From the NCBI RefSeq assembly GCF_023195775.1, contig NZ_CP096205.1, positions 1-64,000 on the forward strand: 64,000 bases of DNA, read 5' to 3'. Of this stretch, positions 2,840-10,135 are shown in pieces; the stretch's first letter is position 1; every line of letters begins with the position of its first letter. The stretch is from Flavobacterium azooxidireducens (GTDB lineage Bacteria > Bacteroidota > Bacteroidia > Flavobacteriales > Flavobacteriaceae). Below the pieces are notes generated by a model. The model ran no database searches. It was not told where the DNA came from and worked only from the letters and a program-made list of their open reading frames with translations. A program made the position numbers and the translations under genes.

Positions 2840-4129
2840 TTAGCGTCTAAAAACATCCCTAAATTGATATAAAAGACGTTCGATTAATCTTAAATCTTCT
2901 GTAATGATGTCTGCTGTTCCAGACATTTCTTGTTGAAAGTTGATTTGTTTTTGATATGAAGTTTGCAAACCATCGGGTAAAGAAATATCAAGCAATAAAT
3001 TACCTTCCTTGTCTGGAATTAACGAAATTGATTTTACTTTCCCTGTTATAATTCCAAATTCTCTGTCGGGATAATTGGCTAATCTGATTTGAACTTCCTG
3101 ATTAATTTTTAATTTTCCTGAATTTTGAGCAGGTGCCTTTACTTTTCCAACAAAATTTTTATGAGTTGTAGGAATAATAGAAAACACATTATCACCAATA
3201 TTTACAAATTGATTTTCTGACCAAACTTGCAAAAAGGTTACTTCACCTGCTATTGTGGATCGCAAAACATATGCTTGCTCCCAATCTGAAATTGATTTTT
3301 TGAGTTGATTAAAGGCTTGGATTGTATTTCGGTAAAGGTTGATATCATCTTTTGATTTATTTACTTGAGTATTTTGACTATTTTTATTCAAATCATTGAT
3401 GGATGATTTTGTTTGAGAAATTTGTGAAGATAGATTTCTGATATTTTTCTCCTGTTGCAGGTAATCAATATTTTTGGTTTCCCATTCTTGTGCTGAAATC
3501 ACGCCTTTTTGATGCAACAATTTAAAACGTTCTAATTCTTTCTTTTTTAAACTTAATTCAGTTTGACCAATTTCTTTTTGTTCTAATAACAATTGTAAAC
3601 GTTCTTTGAGTTGTTTCGATTCATATTGTTGAGCGTTTCCATCAATAGAATAGGGTTTTAAATCTTTATATTGGATGTAGTTCAAATATTCTTTCTCTAA
3701 TAAAGCAAAAGCAGTTTCGATATTTCCTAATTGCAAAGGAGGAAGATTTTCAAAAGGAAACGAAAGACCATCAGCATTTATTTTCACCGAATCAATATGA
3801 GCTTTCAATAAAAAAACATCTTTATAATTAGCCGTATTTTCAATAACCGCAAGCGGGGTATTCTTTTCTATCTTCTGACGGTCAGTAATTAGAATTTTCT
3901 CAATCCTTCCTGAACTATTTGCTACTAACTTTTCCGGTGGAAGTGTTGTAGTTACAATGATGTCAGTTTTTATAATATCTGGATATTTAACTAACCACGA
4001 GACTAAAAATAACGAAAGTAGCAGTGCTAAAATAACGAGATTTCCCCATCGAATCATCCAATGAGGTATTCGTGTTAAGATTTCTTGTACTTCCTCGCTT
4101 CTTAATTCTATTTCTTTATAGTCAGGCAT
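2840..4129 (-). CDS. HlyD-family membrane fusion protein of the peptide exporter
   Basis: This 429-residue periplasmic adaptor would join the ABC exporter encoded directly upstream to an outer-membrane channel. It has a short cytoplasmic N-terminus and one membrane segment at about 29-51. A barrel/lipoyl-like half follows (LVANSSGRIEKILITD near 68), then a long coiled-coil hairpin of Gln, Glu and Lys-rich repeats (about 110-280). The second lipoyl half and a C-terminal beta-barrel follow (VGKVKAPAQNSGKLK onward). Its ATG lies one base after the exporter stop, so it is the last gene of the minus-strand peptide operon. No TolC-like gene is nearby; a shared outer-membrane channel is presumed. 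Confidence 0.9.
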   Translation of the reverse strand: MPDYKEIELRSEEVQEILTRIPHWMIRWGNLVILALLLSLFLVSWLVKYPDIIKTDIIVTTTLPPEKLVANSSGRIEKILITDRQKIEKNTPLAVIENTANYKDVFLLKAHIDSVKINADGLSFPFENLPPLQLGNIETAFALLEKEYLNYIQYKDLKPYSIDGNAQQYESKQLKERLQLLLEQKEIGQTELSLKKKELERFKLLHQKGVISAQEWETKNIDYLQQEKNIRNLSSQISQTKSSINDLNKNSQNTQVNKSKDDINLYRNTIQAFNQLKKSISDWEQAYVLRSTIAGEVTFLQVWSENQFVNIGDNVFSIIPTTHKNFVGKVKAPAQNSGKLKINQEVQIRLANYPDREFGIITGKVKSISLIPDKEGNLLLDISLPDGLQTSYQKQINFQQEMSGTADIITEDLRLIERLLYQFRDVFRR

Positions 4130-4130
4130 A

Positions 4131-6323
4131 TTAATTTCCTAATTGAAGTTGATTTTTAACTAATTCATAATAATTTCCTTTGAGAGAAATCAACTCTTTA
4201 TGCGTTCCAGTTTCAATGATTTTTCCTTTATCTAAAACCACAATTTGGTCTGCATTCATTACGGTACTCAATCGATGAGCTATAATTACGACGGTTTTGT
4301 TTTTGAAAAATGAATCTAATTTTTCAATGATTTCCTTCTCATTATTAGCATCCAAAGCACTGGTAGCTTCGTCAAAAAACAACATCTCCGGGTTTTTATA
4401 AACAGCTCTTGCGATGAGTAATCGTTGTTTTTGACCTGTACTCATTCCAATTCCTTCTGCTCCAATTTTTGTGTTGTAACCCAATGGTAAACTGTCAATA
4501 AATGATTTTATATTCGCTACATCACTCGCATATTGCAGTCTTTTTTTATCAATAACGTCAACTCCAATAGCTATATTTCCAGCGATTGTATCGTTAAAAA
4601 TATAACCTTCCTGCATCACGGTACCGATGTGACTTCGCCAAGTTTTTTGGGAAATAGTATTCAAATTAAAGTTTGCATAATTAATTTCACCTGAAATAGG
4701 TTCATAAAACTTTAAAAGCAGTTTCATGAGCGTTGTTTTACCACTTCCACTCACGCCTACAATGGCTGTGACTTTGTTTGCGGGAATCGTTAGAATAAGA
4801 TTCTCCAATACTTGAGTATCTGAACCGGTATAGCGAAAAGTAACATCTTTTAAAACAATGTCTGCATTTTCAGGGATTTCAGTTACTTGCTTTTCACTAT
4901 TTGCCGTTTCATCTTCTTTATCATGTATCTCAGACAATCGAACAAGTGATATTTTGGCATCTTGCACTTCGCGAATAAAATTTATAAGCTGAACAATTGG
5001 TCCGTTTAGATTTCCAACAATTGCGGTAATGGCCATCATCATCCCTAAGGTAATTTGACCGTCTATGACCAATTTAGCAGATAGAAAAATGATAATGATA
5101 TTTTTAAGTTCATTTATAAAATTGGAACCAATGTTTTGCGTTTGCTCCAACACTAAACTCTTCATCGAAACTTTAAATAATCGTGCTTGAACATATTCCC
5201 AGCCCCAACGTTTTTGTTTTTCGGCATTGTGCAATTTGATTTCTTGCATTCCGTTAATGAGTTCAATTACTTTGCTTTGCTCTTGGCTTACCTCGGCAAA
5301 ACGTTTATAATCTAGCGTTTCTCTTCTTTTTAAAAATAAAATAATCCACAAAAAATAGAAAAAACTTCCGATGAAAAAAACAGCAAATATTTTTAAATTA
5401 TAATATGCCAAAACACCGCCCATGATAATCATATTCACAACCGAAAATAAAACGTTGAGTGATGAATTGGTTAGAATTCGTTCGATTCGGTTGTGATCGT
5501 TGATCCGTTGCATAATATCTCCGGTCATTCTCACATCAAAAAAAGAAATGGGTAAGTTCATTAATTTGATAAAAAAGTCAGATATCAAAGAAATATTTAT
5601 ACGAGTTGATAAGTGCAATAAAATCCAACTTCTAATAAATTCTAAAGCCGTTTTACCAAAAAATAAAACCAACTGAGCGATTAAAACCAAATAAATAAAA
5701 TGTATATTTTGATTTTGAATTCCAACATCTACTACACTTTGAGTAAGAAACGGAAAAATTAGCTGCAATAAACTACCCGCTAACAATCCAATAGCCAATT
5801 GAATCAGAAAAGATTTGTATTTAAAAACATATTGGAATAAAAATTGAAATCCAAAGGATTTATTTTCTTCTTTTTCAAACGATTCTTGATAAAACTTTGG
5901 TGTAGTTTCTAATAGCAAGGCAATACCTTCTTCGGTGGTTGTAGTGGCATTATTTCCAATCCAGCATTTTAAAAAATCTTCTTGGTTATATTCAATTAAT
6001 CCGTGGGCAGGATCAGAGATAAAATAGTTGCTTTTTTTTATTTTATAAAGTACTACATAATGATTGTTATTCCAATGAAGTATGCAAGGTAATGGAGCCT
6101 CTTTAAGTTTTTCTAAGGATACTTTTACACCTAATGTTCTAAAGCCTATTTGTTCTGCTGCTTCACTTAATAACAACAAATTGCTTCCTTCTCTGGTAGT
6201 TTCAGAAAGTTGACGTAATGTTTGGATATTAATTGTTTTGCCATAATGCTTGGCGATTATTTTTAGGCAGGTGGGACCGCAGTCTTTTGAGTCGGGTTGT
6301 TTGTAAAAGGGAAAGTTTGACAT
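4131..6323 (-). CDS. Peptidase-containing ABC transporter (C39 peptidase, bacteriocin-type exporter)
   Basis: This 730-residue inner-membrane exporter should cut the leader from a double-glycine-type peptide and export the core. It has an N-terminal C39 peptidase with C15 in DCGPTC, H88 in NNNHYVVL and D104 in SDPAHG, so all catalytic residues are present. About six membrane segments follow (roughly 165-440), then an ATPase domain with Walker A GVSGSGKTT, signature MSTGQKQRL, Walker B LFFDEATSAL and the H-loop AHRLS. It lies between a thioredoxin gene (5 bases) and the HlyD gene (1 base). The four-cysteine peptide encoded at 7703-7933 is its natural substrate candidate. Confidence 0.95.
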   Translation of the reverse strand: MSNFPFYKQPDSKDCGPTCLKIIAKHYGKTINIQTLRQLSETTREGSNLLLLSEAAEQIGFRTLGVKVSLEKLKEAPLPCILHWNNNHYVVLYKIKKSNYFISDPAHGLIEYNQEDFLKCWIGNNATTTTEEGIALLLETTPKFYQESFEKEENKSFGFQFLFQYVFKYKSFLIQLAIGLLAGSLLQLIFPFLTQSVVDVGIQNQNIHFIYLVLIAQLVLFFGKTALEFIRSWILLHLSTRINISLISDFFIKLMNLPISFFDVRMTGDIMQRINDHNRIERILTNSSLNVLFSVVNMIIMGGVLAYYNLKIFAVFFIGSFFYFLWIILFLKRRETLDYKRFAEVSQEQSKVIELINGMQEIKLHNAEKQKRWGWEYVQARLFKVSMKSLVLEQTQNIGSNFINELKNIIIIFLSAKLVIDGQITLGMMMAITAIVGNLNGPIVQLINFIREVQDAKISLVRLSEIHDKEDETANSEKQVTEIPENADIVLKDVTFRYTGSDTQVLENLILTIPANKVTAIVGVSGSGKTTLMKLLLKFYEPISGEINYANFNLNTISQKTWRSHIGTVMQEGYIFNDTIAGNIAIGVDVIDKKRLQYASDVANIKSFIDSLPLGYNTKIGAEGIGMSTGQKQRLLIARAVYKNPEMLFFDEATSALDANNEKEIIEKLDSFFKNKTVVIIAHRLSTVMNADQIVVLDKGKIIETGTHKELISLKGNYYELVKNQLQLGN

Positions 6324-6328
6324 TAAAA

Positions 6329-6838
6329 TTATTCTGCTAGATATTTGTTTATCTCTTTGTATAACTTTTCTCTTTCCGATGGTCGTGGTGCATCAGAATT
6401 TACCAACTCACCCTTTTTATTATAAATCAAATAAAATGGGATTTCGTTTTTAGGTTTAATTTTTTTAAATAACTCATCCTTTTCAATTTCAATTATATAA
6501 TAATTTCTATCAGACTCAATGATACCGTCTTTTTTTATTGCTTTTTCACAATCTTCCTTGTTTAAGTCCATGGTTATATATAAAAATATAACATCTTCCG
6601 GAGGATATTCTTTCTTAATCTCTTTCATTTTTTTTATCTCCTTTCTACAAGGAGCACACCAACTTGCCCAAAAATCAACATAGATAACTTTTCCTTCATA
6701 CTTTTTTAGAATCGAGCTATATGTTTCCTTAGGCTTAAATGATGGATCTATTTGTGCATAATTAACATTATGAACAAAAAGTAAAAAAATAATTATTCTA
6801 AATACATTTGAAAGTAAAAGTTTTTTTGTAAAATCCAT
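6329..6838 (-). CDS. Secreted TlpA-like thioredoxin
   Basis: A 169-residue thioredoxin-fold protein with a signal sequence (hydrophobic segment at about 14-28, ending NVNYAQ) and the active site WASWCAPC (C61, C64), as in TlpA/ResA thiol-disulfide reductases. It probably works in the periplasm. Its start overlaps the end of the preceding gene by 46 bases, which suggests translational coupling. In this operon it could reduce or isomerise disulfides in the cysteine-containing peptide, balancing the oxidising VKOR fusion; that role is inferred from context. Confidence 0.88.
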   Translation of the reverse strand: MDFTKKLLLSNVFRIIIFLLFVHNVNYAQIDPSFKPKETYSSILKKYEGKVIYVDFWASWCAPCRKEIKKMKEIKKEYPPEDVIFLYITMDLNKEDCEKAIKKDGIIESDRNYYIIEIEKDELFKKIKPKNEIPFYLIYNKKGELVNSDAPRPSEREKLYKEINKYLAE

Positions 6839-7671
6839 TCTAATTTATTTGAGTTATATATAAATGATTTATGCTTTTCATTCCTTTTTCTTTTTGTGCT
6901 AACAGATGGAACTGCCGATATTATTCCTTCTCTTGTGGATATAAACTGTTGTGGATAATCAGCATCATCCAATGTCTCAAAAACAATAAAAACCCCCTTT
7001 TTAGGAACAGAAATATCAAGATTTTCAACATCCAGTGTAAACCAATTATTCTTATTATAATCATTTCTCAATATTCCAAAATCATATAAAAGCTGATCTG
7101 GTAAATAATAATTATCATCAGTTGTGAATAATTTTAATCTAAAAGGGAGGTATTTTAAATTTTTAGCTCCGTATAAATCAATAAGCTTTATTTTAATTCT
7201 TCTAATTTTAGTTAGACTTAAAGAGTCTTTAATATCTAGTTTATTTGGTTTAATTAGATTAGCTATTTTAGTATTATGCGACAAATTAACATGATAAGGT
7301 AATGGATTTATATTTAATCTTTGCTTCTGTTTTTGATTTAAAACAACTTCATCTAGTGAAACTGTTTTAGGCCATAAATAAATTACATTATTGTAGTTTT
7401 TTAAATTCTGCTTTTCAATACAAACCTTTATGAAGCTAACATGTGAAAAACAAATCTTATCATAATCTTTTATAGATGAAATATTAAATATTCCATCTTT
7501 ATCATTGTTAAAAACTTTAATTGTATCTAGATTCTTTAGAAAAACAATATTTACATCATATAAAAGTTCTTCATTCACTTTATTTAAAATTTTATAGTTT
7601 TCAGTTTGAGAATAAACTATAAGGGCACAAAAAAAAAGTAATAGAGAAAATAGAGGTTTTCTATTTTTCAA
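6793..7671 (-). CDS. Secreted protein with carboxypeptidase-regulatory-like N-terminus, unknown role
   Basis: A 292-residue protein if started at TTG 7671, giving a clean signal peptide (KNRKPLFSLLLFFCALIVYSQ). The frame is open to a GTG at 7716, but that lies inside the peptide precursor gene and would put 15 polar residues before the signal. After the signal comes a short beta-rich region resembling the carboxypeptidase-regulatory-like domains of Bacteroidota surface proteins (VSLDEVVL is typical of their end). The remaining about 180 residues have no motif I recognise. It sits between precursor and thioredoxin, so a role in maturation, export or immunity is possible but unproven. Confidence 0.65.
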   Translation of the reverse strand: MKNRKPLFSLLLFFCALIVYSQTENYKILNKVNEELLYDVNIVFLKNLDTIKVFNNDKDGIFNISSIKDYDKICFSHVSFIKVCIEKQNLKNYNNVIYLWPKTVSLDEVVLNQKQKQRLNINPLPYHVNLSHNTKIANLIKPNKLDIKDSLSLTKIRRIKIKLIDLYGAKNLKYLPFRLKLFTTDDNYYLPDQLLYDFGILRNDYNKNNWFTLDVENLDISVPKKGVFIVFETLDDADYPQQFISTREGIISAVPSVSTKRKRNEKHKSFIYNSNKLEWILQKNFYFQMYLE

Positions 7672-7680
7672 AAAACCTCT
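7652..7680 (-). terminator. Hairpin just after the peptide precursor gene, candidate attenuator
   Basis: A perfect 9-bp inverted repeat has arms at 7652-7660 and 7672-7680 around an 11-base loop. Read on the minus strand, a T-rich tract including a run of nine T follows about 15 bases later. It lies 23 bases after the precursor stop, and its loop contains the TTG proposed as the next gene's start. It could reduce read-through so the peptide is made in excess of the export proteins. Confidence 0.4.
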
Positions 7681-7702
7681 ATTTATTAAAGAACTAAAAT
7701 TA

Positions 7703-7933
7703 TTAACCCCAAACACTACAACCTCCCCATCCAGTTACCTCTCCAATTCCAATACCCAAAAAAGTTCTAGTACATGTCCATTCACAAGAATAACCAACAG
7801 CTTCTCCACCACTGTAAATTATTTGTTCATTCCCAGTTAATGTACAATTTCTTCTTCCGCTTCCTTCAATCTTTTTTAATTCAGTTTTATTCAAAACTGT
7901 AACCCCTTCTAAATTCAAAATTGATTTTTTCAT
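7703..7933 (-). CDS. Gly-Ser-type leader peptide precursor with four cysteines (bacteriocin-like)
   Basis: A 76-residue peptide. Its N-terminal part (MKKSILNLEG...LNKTELKKIEGSG) has the LxxxELKxIxG(G/S/A) form of double-glycine leaders of Bacteroidota secreted peptides, with likely C39 cleavage after G24-S25. The core of about 50 residues is Gly- and Trp-rich with C30, C50, C54 and C72, enough for two disulfides. It lies between a disulfide-forming VKOR fusion and the exporter genes, which supports it as the secreted product. It could be a bacteriocin or a signalling peptide. The core matches no family I recognise. Confidence 0.8.
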   Translation of the reverse strand: MKKSILNLEGVTVLNKTELKKIEGSGRRNCTLTGNEQIIYSGGEAVGYSCEWTCTRTFLGIGIGEVTGWGGCSVWG

Positions 7934-8037
7934 AATCTAATAATTATTTATTTAAATTTTTCCTCAATCCTTTAAAGTCAGTTGAGTTTCTGACTACTCT
8001 TGCAAGAATATTTTTATCTAATGGTTTTTGATTATTT

Positions 8038-9576
8038 TCAATGATTATTTTCTTCTATTAAATCTGTAATAAAATAGTTCAAATCTTGGAGTTCATATTC
8101 TTTTGGAAATAGTTTTTGATTGATAATTATTACAGGGGTATAACTAAAGTTATTTAACAAACACCAATCATAATACTCATGCATCAAATTAACAGTTTCA
8201 CTAGAAACATTGTTTATTTTCCATTTATTTTTCCATTTTTCTAATTCAAAATTGTGAATATGCCAATCAGAAATGGCTTCAAAAAGCTTGTCTGATTTAG
8301 TAATATTCATCTCTGTCAAAGTTTCTACGACAACGTTAAATGGATTTTCTTTATTATTTGGGTTTATATTAAAAATAATATCCACAGTAATTGAATCAGA
8401 ATTATTTTGTATTAGTGTGATTACATCTTTAAATATTTTATGACAATGAAAACATGATGGACTTAGTAATAAACATATTTTTATTGGAGCATTCGAATTT
8501 CCCAAATTGATTTTCTTTAAACTATTAAATGCTTCTGCATTTAAAATTGGTTTCGTTAAAAAATTAAAGACACTATAGTTTCTTTTAATCTTTCTCAATT
8601 GATAAATTTCATTACTTTGTTTGTTTATTTTCTCTAAATTATCTTTAATTAAAAACCATAATAAACTAACCGCTAAAGTTGATAAGATATATACAATTAA
8701 ACCTTGAAATGTCAAACTAGATATTGATGAATAAATTATAAAAAACATCCCTAAAGAAAGTAAACTAAAAGAAATCAATAAACAAAGTGTACACCATTTT
8801 TTTAATTTAATTTTCTGAATCCAAATTGTATAAAGGATTATTGGAAATGCAAACAAACTAATAAATCCAATCAAATTAGTTATCCCTGTTTCAAAAAATA
8901 TACTAAGAAATCCTGCCCCAAAAAAGATTATTGGCAAGTCAATAAAACTCAACCATTTGTTTATCTTAGAATAAGATGAAGCAAATACTTTATTACACGA
9001 AACAGATGAATTAAAATTACAAAAGTTTGAAACTAATTTTTCATTAATACCAAAACTCTCATTAACAATCAATATACTAAGCAAAAAACCCATCACAACG
9101 ACAGAAGTTATTAGCAAACTGTAAATATCAAGTTCTTTAAAAAATAATAGTAATAGAAATGGTATAAAAACGAGTAGTCCATTTTTTAGATAATTAAAAG
9201 TCTTATTATAATGTAAACCTTTCGATTCTTTCTCATTAGGTTCAATTCCAACAAACAATCCATCCCAATTTACTATAAAATCATCCTTTTTAAATTGAAA
9301 CTCTTTTAAATTATCAGATTCAATTAAAACAAAATCGTTATGCTTTGAAACTAAAACAAACTCATTTCCAAAAAAGGTCATAAACTTTTGAGGCAATTCA
9401 ACAAACTTATCTTTTGGAACATAAGCAGCAATATTCTCAATTCTCAGAGAATCAAAAGAATCTGTAATTGCATAAAGACTTGGGTAGTTGGGATGAGACA
9501 AATATAAATCTCTGAAATTATCTATTAAATCAGAATAATTATTAATATTCAAGTATTTTGAAACAACATTTAACAT
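8038..9576 (-). CDS. C39-like / VKOR / thioredoxin fusion, disulfide-forming membrane protein
   Basis: A 512-residue three-part protein. Residues 1-110 resemble a C39 peptidase-like domain (HPNYPSLYAITDSF at 28-41) but hold no cysteine, so this part is not a peptidase. Residues 125-310 form a multi-pass vitamin K epoxide reductase domain with the loop pair C186/C194 and the active pair WCTLC (C262, C265). Residues 350-510 form a DsbA-like thioredoxin domain with CFHC (C375, C378). VKOR-thioredoxin fusions pass electrons from a substrate thiol to quinone, making disulfides in the periplasm. It is the first gene of the operon. The dead C39 part may dock the precursor leader, by analogy with C39-like domains; that is inference. 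Confidence 0.88.
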   Translation of the reverse strand: MLNVVSKYLNINNYSDLIDNFRDLYLSHPNYPSLYAITDSFDSLRIENIAAYVPKDKFVELPQKFMTFFGNEFVLVSKHNDFVLIESDNLKEFQFKKDDFIVNWDGLFVGIEPNEKESKGLHYNKTFNYLKNGLLVFIPFLLLLFFKELDIYSLLITSVVVMGFLLSILIVNESFGINEKLVSNFCNFNSSVSCNKVFASSYSKINKWLSFIDLPIIFFGAGFLSIFFETGITNLIGFISLFAFPIILYTIWIQKIKLKKWCTLCLLISFSLLSLGMFFIIYSSISSLTFQGLIVYILSTLAVSLLWFLIKDNLEKINKQSNEIYQLRKIKRNYSVFNFLTKPILNAEAFNSLKKINLGNSNAPIKICLLLSPSCFHCHKIFKDVITLIQNNSDSITVDIIFNINPNNKENPFNVVVETLTEMNITKSDKLFEAISDWHIHNFELEKWKNKWKINNVSSETVNLMHEYYDWCLLNNFSYTPVIIINQKLFPKEYELQDLNYFITDLIEENNH

Positions 9577-9602
9577 CTAATTCCCATTTTGGCTTAAACT
9601 TT

Positions 9603-9644
9603 AACAAAGCTACAAATTATCTTAAAAGTAAGAATAGCTTTGTT
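9603..9644. promoter_or_regulatory. Inverted repeat overlapping the peptide operon -7 box
   Basis: The 10-bp arms at 9603-9612 and 9635-9644 are perfect inverted copies 22 bases apart. Each contains TAGCTTTG, a match to the Bacteroidota -7 consensus TAnnTTTG. The minus-strand copy (9605-9612) is well placed for the operon, about 28 bases before ATG 9576. No good -33 TTG is seen for it. The symmetry suggests a regulator site or paired divergent promoters. Confidence 0.5.
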
Positions 9645-9707
9645 ATTTCAAAAATAAATAAAAAATAATAGCATGCAAAAAAATAAAATGAAATTCCTAT
9701 GATTTTT

Positions 9708-9740
9708 TTATGCACCTATTCCTGCATAATATTGCATAAT
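9708..9740. promoter_or_regulatory. TGCATAA repeats, candidate XRE operator
   Basis: Three half-sites are seen: TTATGCA at 9708-9714 (inverted), TGCATAAT at 9723-9730 and TGCATAAT at 9733-9740. The first two form an inverted repeat with an 8-base gap; the last two are direct repeats one helical turn apart. They cover the upstream part of the promoter of the divergent XRE gene, as expected for an autoregulatory operator. Confidence 0.5.
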
Positions 9741-9758
9741 GAGATAATAATATCTTTG
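9732..9758 (+). promoter_or_regulatory. Promoter of the XRE regulator
   Basis: A -7 box TATCTTTG (9751-9758) fits TAnnTTTG, with TTG at 9732-9734 as a -33 element 16 bases upstream, slightly short of the usual 19. Transcription would begin a few bases after 9758. This excludes the GTG at 9758 as start and supports ATG 9776. Confidence 0.55.
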
Positions 9759-9775
9759 TGAAAATAAGTTATATA

Positions 9776-10135
9776 ATGGAACATCAAAAACTCATTCAAG
9801 CTCGAAAATCGAAAGGATTTACTCAAGAACAAATGGCTTCAAATATTGCTATGGAACAAACAACTTATTCAAGAAAGGAAAGAGGTAAATCGCCAATATC
9901 GGATGAAGAATGGCAACGATTTGCGAAAACACTCGATGTAACTGTTGAAGAAATAAAAGAGAGTCAACAACCAAATTTAAAAAATGAACATTGTACTTTT
10001 CAATACAATAGCATTGGAATACAATTTATTTCTATACCTCAAGAAGTTTTAGATACTATTTTGAAATATAATAAGAAACTCGAAGAAGAAAACGAAAAAT
10101 TAAAAAATGAAATAAAAAAAGCAGGTCAATTTTAA
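9776..10135 (+). CDS. XRE-family helix-turn-helix regulator
   Basis: A 119-residue DNA-binding protein. The N-terminal HTH (about 1-60) has the XRE pattern (RKSKGFTQEQMASNIAMEQ, then TYSRKERGKSPIS). The C-terminus is a Glu/Lys-rich coiled coil (KYNKKLEEENEKLKNEIKK), probably for dimerisation. The frame opens at GTG 9758, but the promoter's -7 box covers that codon. It is transcribed away from the peptide operon and is the only regulator nearby, so it is the best candidate for controlling that operon and itself through the TGCATAA sites. No sensor domain is visible. Confidence 0.88.
   Translation: MEHQKLIQARKSKGFTQEQMASNIAMEQTTYSRKERGKSPISDEEWQRFAKTLDVTVEEIKESQQPNLKNEHCTFQYNSIGIQFISIPQEVLDTILKYNKKLEEENEKLKNEIKKAGQF

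Follow-up and report, generated by a model that had tools for sequence, protein, structure and literature searches.

A C39-like/VKOR/DsbA fusion enzyme beside a four-cysteine leader peptide in Flavobacterium azooxidireducens: a candidate system for disulfide formation before export

The window analyzed here, comprising the first 64 kb of the single-contig, 3.82-Mb genome of Flavobacterium azooxidireducens (NZ_CP096205.1), contains a locus of six minus-strand genes (9576-2840) that faces a divergent regulatory gene. In order, the six genes encode a 512-residue fusion enzyme (8038..9576, –), a 76-residue precursor peptide (7703..7933, –), an exported protein that we call C307 (6793..7671, –), a TlpA/ResA-like exported thioredoxin with a WCAPC motif (6329..6838, –), a C39 peptidase-containing ABC exporter of the PCAT type (4131..6323, –) and an HlyD-family adaptor (2840..4129, –). 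The facing gene encodes an XRE-family regulator (9776..10135, +). Five of the seven proteins have Pfam matches: VKOR and Thioredoxin_4 in the fusion enzyme, thioredoxin families in the TlpA-like protein, Peptidase_C39 with ABC_membrane and ABC_tran in the exporter, HlyD_3 in the adaptor and HTH_3 in the regulator; C307 and the precursor have none. The TlpA-like assignment also draws on cysteine positions and a hydrophobic N-terminus, and its NCBIfam match is below cut-off. A preliminary description of this DNA had reported the same gene arrangement and the absence of lanthipeptide and radical-SAM enzymes. The listing of open reading frames (ORFs) places all seven genes at the reported coordinates, and no Pfam match to a lanthipeptide synthetase or a radical-SAM enzyme occurs among the seven proteins, but two of the reported starts likelier lie elsewhere. 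The gene for C307 was called as 307 codons from GTG 7716, overlapping the precursor; TTG 7671 is the likelier start because the same protein in the database (P0125) has 292 residues, the length that this start yields together with a predicted signal peptide (MKNRKPLFSLLLFFCALIVYSQ). For the XRE gene, ATG 9776 appears likelier than the listed GTG 9758.

The precursor consists of a 25-residue leader ending in Gly24-Ser25 and a 51-residue core (residues 26-76), with cysteines at positions 30, 50, 54 and 72, in agreement with the four-cysteine, Gly-Ser-leader peptide described previously. The computed monoisotopic mass of the core is 5400.49 in the reduced state and 5396.45 with two disulfides. 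No second precursor of the same type was found in the genome (next match E 0.26), the precursor matched neither PF14406 nor NF047798, and the class IIa motif YGNGVxC is absent from the core. The exporter is the sole PF03412 match in the genome at E<=0.001. It retains Q9 as well as the peptidase residues C15, H88 and D104 that had been reported intact, and it joins this C39 domain, with its catalytic Cys, His and Asp, to ABC membrane and ATPase domains, the domain composition of a PCAT.

The fusion enzyme has three parts. Its N-terminus (residues 1-120) is a C39-like domain without catalytic residues, its middle comprises six predicted transmembrane (TM) helices with a VKOR core (C186, C194 and C262xxC265), and its C-terminus is a DsbA-like domain with the motif CFHC at 375-378. 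All four VKOR cysteines are kept in 115 of 115 fusion relatives, and the Pfam VKOR match is above cut-off. Alignment of the N-domain with exporter C39 domains by hhalign gave a probability of 96.9, compared with 0.1-0.5 for three controls; the window protein itself is not matched by PF03412, which, among the matches listed, flagged 8 of 120 relatives. The AF2 model (pLDDT 84.7) gave Foldseek and VIA structure matches to ComA, PCAT1, a C39 protease with leader (6mpz) and ScsC/DsbA, and the alignment of the fusions, when searched against PDB sequences, returned one weak match, 1z6m. By its modeled fold, the N-domain is thus a predicted, catalytically dead C39-like domain. Relatives of the fusion carry database names such as "vitamin K epoxide reductase family protein", "uncharacterized membrane protein" and "hypothetical protein".

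Among 299 genus genomes, 92 contain the fusion enzyme, as do 40 of 299 genomes from the family; each count includes the enzyme's own genome. A scan of genome contigs with the enzyme confirmed no locus. We fetched 63 fusion loci (40 family, 23 genus) that were picked by enzyme score and not by neighbors; they represent the upper part of the score lists, with places skipped (for example G217, G162, G026, G130 and G164, and G528, G456 and G529). Two loci lacked a fusion ORF of more than 350 residues and were dropped, leaving 61, and the 17 loci fetched through a precursor match (L121-L137) were excluded from this count. Precursors were called by a rule that asked for a double-glycine-type leader and at least two core cysteines within 6 kb of the fusion enzyme. 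By this rule, 55 of the 61 loci have at least one precursor on the enzyme's strand, and the totals are 195 same-strand against 10 opposite-strand precursors. The cysteine count is even in 178 of the 195, although the precursors are related to one another and a binomial test on these counts therefore overstates significance. Applied to 17 regions of other Flavobacterium DNA totaling 297,017 bases, the same rule found a single ORF, and it found one further ORF within the window. We therefore rejected the explanation that the precursor is a chance ORF or a mis-called gene: its relatives recur, and rule-matching ORFs are rare elsewhere in the genus. A C39 exporter lies near 42 of the 61 fusion enzymes, and 15 of the 19 loci without one still have precursors; the enzyme is therefore tied to the precursors themselves. 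Together, these results strongly support the earlier suggestion of a disulfide-stabilized, exported peptide of the double-glycine (GG) type.

Some of these loci hold arrays rather than single precursors. At L140, 18 different GG-leader cysteine ORFs surround the fusion enzyme and exporter, ten each are present at L138 and L151, and 23 Flavobacterium loci together contain 113 precursor-like ORFs. Five array precursors were scanned, one of which matched NF047798 and one PF14406, both below the curated cut-off. In a phylum sample of 12 PF07884 loci, nine have a C39-like domain and seven of the nine have cysteine precursors on the enzyme strand; the three without this domain have no cysteine precursors, but they are distant, weak controls of which the VKOR profile recognized one (24 bits). 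Loci with a C39-like domain on VKOR (L282-L285 and L288-L290) also occur outside the genus, in further families and classes and more broadly across the phylum, where their GG-leader peptides mostly have six or eight cysteines. At two loci (L129:11265-13429 and L061) the proteins adjoining the fusion appear to resemble ATP-grasp and SPASM-type peptide maturases, and some loci may therefore combine two modification systems.

We then considered which side of the membrane the enzyme faces. Canonical VKOR-thioredoxin proteins have five TM helices. The fusion family has six hydrophobic segments, each above the hydropathy cut in 96 to 115 of 115 members, and an even number of helices would put both end domains on one side, that of the VKOR CxxC. 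We counted Lys and Arg residues in the connecting loops of 31 fusions (the window protein, five further fusions and 25 taken at random from 114 others) and of 18 canonical VKORs, leaving out 7 of 30 PF07884 loci with unclear ORFs; six canonical proteins lack a thioredoxin domain, and the stretch after TM5 was counted for the other 12. On the CxxC side, mean counts are 3.55, 2.61 and 7.06 in the fusions versus 1.33, 0 and 1.08 in the canonical proteins, whereas the opposite loops average 0.26 and 0.39 versus 2.72 and 3.28. The placement of positive charge in the fusions is the mirror image of that in canonical VKORs. Given the positive-inside rule, the fusions are therefore predicted to present both end domains and the VKOR active site to the cytoplasm. 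A C39-like domain would be sensible there because the leader is expected on the precursor only before export. Its predicted location, together with the loss of its catalytic residues, leads us to propose that the enzyme oxidizes precursors under guidance of the leader before they are exported.

The usual orientation would instead have the fusion oxidize the peptide in the periplasm after export, with the dead C39-like domain merely docking the exporter or binding an exported peptide that still bears its leader. Natural bacterial DsbA/VKOR pairs typically act outside the cytoplasm, and the C-terminal domain of the fusion resembles, as modeled, the periplasmic ScsC/DsbA structures. Bacteroidetocin loci also carry a thiol oxidoreductase that is thought to act on the peptide, according to the available text of PMC6671954. 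The reversed Lys/Arg distribution speaks against this orientation, as does a leader-type domain on the DsbA-domain side if there are six TM helices, and we regard a periplasmic site of action as unlikely.

The precursor core itself is far less widespread than the enzyme. A core-only profile matched 7 of 398 genus genomes at E<=0.01, its own genome included, and one of the seven (G335) is a weak 27-residue match containing a stop; three others of the seven (G668, G617 and G669) had not been used to build the profile. Relatives of the precursor comprise P0002-P0004 and those at L121, L122 and L219-L221. A scan of genome contigs gave 44 pattern matches to the core, of which two loci were confirmed. 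We therefore rejected the idea of a core broadly conserved beside exporters. The co-occurrence anticipated in the preliminary description accordingly holds for the leader type, present at 40 of the 42 exporter-bearing fusion loci, but not for this core type. Nor does linkage to an exporter hold throughout: at three of six sub-type A loci (L122, L219 and L221) neither an exporter nor a fusion enzyme lies within the 18-19 kb fetched, although two of those genomes (G492 and G669) have both elsewhere.

What does accompany the core is C307. A C307-type gene follows it in all nine loci examined (the window, L121, L122, those of G668, G617 and G669, and the second sub-type loci L123, L124 and L126; P0002-P0004 not included), and a TlpA gene comes directly after C307 in four of them (the window, L122, L219 and L221). 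In G668, G617 and G669 the C307-type gene is directly after the core and TlpA is next in two, as in the window; at L121 a TlpA-like gene precedes the core; and at L126:470-2459 two tandem C307-type genes follow one second-sub-type precursor, and the 9 kb retrieved there contain no exporter. C307 has a signal peptide, a CarboxypepD_reg/SusC-N-extension-like domain similar to the extension that SusC/TonB receptors carry at their N-terminus (8aa4, E 3.1e-11) and a C-terminal part; AF2 models can be trusted over the first ~80 mature residues but not beyond (C-terminal pLDDT 22-46, four sequences). From this gene order, C307 and TlpA look like partners of the core, with self-protection or folding control as their likeliest role. 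The preliminary description had noted neither this association nor the dead C39-like domain, the predicted inversion of the enzyme and the precursor arrays.

C307 could be a dedicated immunity protein for a bacteriocin, following class IIa-like logic. Its position directly after the core would suit that role, and its signal peptide would place it where a toxin acting from the outer surface would be met. The superfamily, however, has matches in 299 of 299 genus genomes (at most seven candidates were scored per genome), which also led us to reject the family as a marker of the system by itself. Among the matches listed, 11 places score at least 226 bits against the C307 model; eight are the model rows themselves, and the other three (L191-L193) lie beside fusion/exporter or TlpA/precursor genes. 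Seventeen regions scoring 120-181 bits (L194-L210) have no fusion enzyme or TlpA gene and contain one chance three-cysteine ORF (L206). Score alone does not discriminate, because the core-linked C307s of L219 and L221 (160 and 167 bits) score like these unlinked ones. Moreover, C307 kin lie beside exporters with an unrelated precursor (L191 and L192), after an unrelated two-cysteine precursor (L050) and beside a fusion locus without an adjoining precursor (L146), and no immunity protein was found for bacteroidetocins (PMC6671954). C307 is a candidate core partner or immunity protein, but dedicated immunity seems rather doubtful to us.

Instead of being a diffusible toxin, the core could also act together with C307 and TlpA at the cell surface, as a signal or as a component of the envelope, with PCAT or lipoprotein-domain export as alternative routes. 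At L219:8162-8779 (+), in genome G668, the core forms the C-terminal 47 residues of a 205-residue lipoprotein-like ORF, with C307 and TlpA genes next; this genome lacks the fusion enzyme and has no exporter at E<=1e-100. The core-C307-TlpA cassettes without a nearby exporter at L122, L219 and L221 point the same way. On the other hand, the lipoprotein form is confined to this one genome (95% complete, 4% contamination), and the precursor diversity of the arrays resembles an arms race. We consider an envelope function for the core improbable.

We think it reasonably probable, with some reserve, that the locus makes and exports a 51-residue, two-disulfide peptide that is oxidized in the cytoplasm before export, C307 and TlpA acting in the envelope. 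The precursor, made with its double-glycine-type leader, would dock through that leader on the dead C39-like domain at the cytoplasmic face of the inner membrane. The DsbA-like domain would then oxidize the core cysteines and pass electrons through the VKOR cysteines to quinone, as its families do. The exporter's C39 domain would cut the oxidized precursor after Gly-Ser, and its ABC part, HlyD and an unlinked outer-membrane channel would export the peptide, on which, or against which, C307 and the TlpA-like thioredoxin may act in the envelope. The product is likely a bacteroidetocin-like antibacterial peptide, a putative bacteriocin. More tentatively, and with slightly less than even confidence, we suggest that the fusions form a class of disulfide synthases found across the phylum, guided by the leader, facing the cytoplasm and coupled to quinone; flavobacteria would use them to mature extensive and rapidly changing sets of knotted peptides, some of which have envelope partner modules of their own.

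Several observations weigh against this proposal. The topology is deduced from the positive-inside rule and a count of helices, the canonical VKORs used for comparison come from distant members of the phylum, and the extra first helix is above the hydropathy cut in 96 of 115 members. Disulfide bonds normally form outside the cytoplasm, which is normally reducing, and oxidation there would therefore need shielding by docking. Six of the 61 fusion loci have no precursor by the rule. The 195 related leaders mostly have Ile at -4 and Leu at -12, both partly set by the search rule, but 143 have Gln at -7, which is not hydrophobic and therefore argues against a simple carry-over of the LahT150 groove. 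The lipoprotein-tail core of G668 fits a role in the envelope more readily than a diffusible toxin, and the C307 kin at L191, L192, L050 and L146 indicate that C307 is not exclusive to the core.

The closest known kinds are bacteroidetocins and PCAT-exported peptides. Bacteroidetocins (class IIf; Coyne et al. 2019, PMC6671954), as described in the text available, share with the present locus their occurrence in Bacteroidota, a GG-type leader (the site here is Gly-Ser), a four-cysteine peptide, and a thiol oxidoreductase with a C39-ABC exporter in the cluster. They have a 15-residue leader, a 42-residue core and a separate unknown 5-TM protein, and four genes suffice. Here the leader has 25 and the core 51 residues, the gene for a separate 5-TM protein is absent, and a 6-TM C39-like/VKOR/DsbA fusion is found instead with HlyD, C307, TlpA and XRE genes; the two kinds thus differ in gene make-up. 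Among PCAT/AMS exporters (PCAT1, LahT150), LahT150 recognizes leader residues -4, -7 and -12, according to the available part of PMC6363468; the window exporter keeps the same Q, C, H and D, and the window leader has I22, L19 and L14 at these positions. The fusion N-domain has the same predicted fold as their C39 domains, but this copy is dead and is joined to a disulfide oxidase, not to an ABC transporter. With a C39 fold and no catalytic residues, it corresponds to the C39-like domains of type I toxin exporters, in which a dead C39 fold recruits the substrate (PMC6363468); those domains sit on ABC transporters, whereas this one sits on VKOR-DsbA.

VKOR-thioredoxin fusions and inverted VKOR/DsbB enzymes share the cysteine relay, and the latter, which have been employed to form disulfides in the cytoplasm of E. 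coli (PMC5471842), provide a precedent for a cytoplasm-facing VKOR. The difference here is that inversion is predicted for a family that occurs naturally in bacteria and is associated with exported peptides, and whose members have one more TM helix and carry a C39-like domain. The topology of the Aeropyrum VKOR is reportedly the subject of a 2017 study by Hibender. A paper on Bacteroidales mining mentions bacteroidetocins and PCATs, and its main text, as available, does not contain VKOR, vitamin K, thioredoxin or disulfide (PMC10352776); the available text of a VKOR phylogeny has neither "peptidase" nor "Bacteroidetes" (PMC4555120). Our search of the open literature, which covered titles and the openings of abstracts and had subscription journals outside its scope, found no paper describing a family of leader-guided cytoplasmic disulfide synthases. 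A categorically new enzyme type is possible. If leader-bearing precursors are indeed oxidized inside the cell before export, the fusions would constitute a separate kind of peptide-maturing enzyme, one that might serve as a tool for producing disulfide-rich peptides in bacteria. The precursor-like ORFs of the 23 Flavobacterium loci also open up a pool of peptides.

Within Flavobacterium, the locus is an accessory insertion. The methyltransferase and transglycosylase genes that flank it are 7.5 kb apart in the window but adjacent, less than 100 bp apart, in 4 of 12 other Flavobacterium genomes (L232, L234, L235 and L238); the distance is ~1 kb at L233, and the remaining seven have no transglycosylase within the 1.5 kb examined. 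The GC content of the exporter and HlyD genes (2840-6323) is 32%, the same as in the window beyond 10170, compared with 24% for the fusion enzyme and 26% for the precursor-C307-TlpA stretch (24-26% over 6329-9576), which suggests separate histories for the enzyme and exporter parts. Between the fusion enzyme and the precursor, an open frame of ~32 codons with no ATG (ENNQKPLDKNILARVVRNSTDFKGLRKNLNK) occupies 7942-8037 (–).

A sigma-70 promoter scan found 47 matches versus 46.5 in shuffles, which is no excess; the motif TANNTTTG occurs 125 times over the window versus 113 expected, giving no evidence for it; and an Rfam scan returned no match. PADLOC reported HTH-type matches to the regulator only. 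Directly 3' of the precursor, folding against shuffles identified an RNA hairpin of 16 pairs (7648..7684, –; minimum free energy -17.1 kcal/mol, z -3.88, equaled by none of 200 shuffles), which contains the likely TTG start of C307 and would be expected at this position if the peptide must outnumber its partners. Finally, the divergent intergenic sequence between the fusion enzyme and XRE genes contains a perfect 11-bp inverted repeat, TAACAAAGCTA/TAGCTTTGTTA, with 22-nt spacing (9602..9645, no strand), a candidate operator for the XRE regulator.

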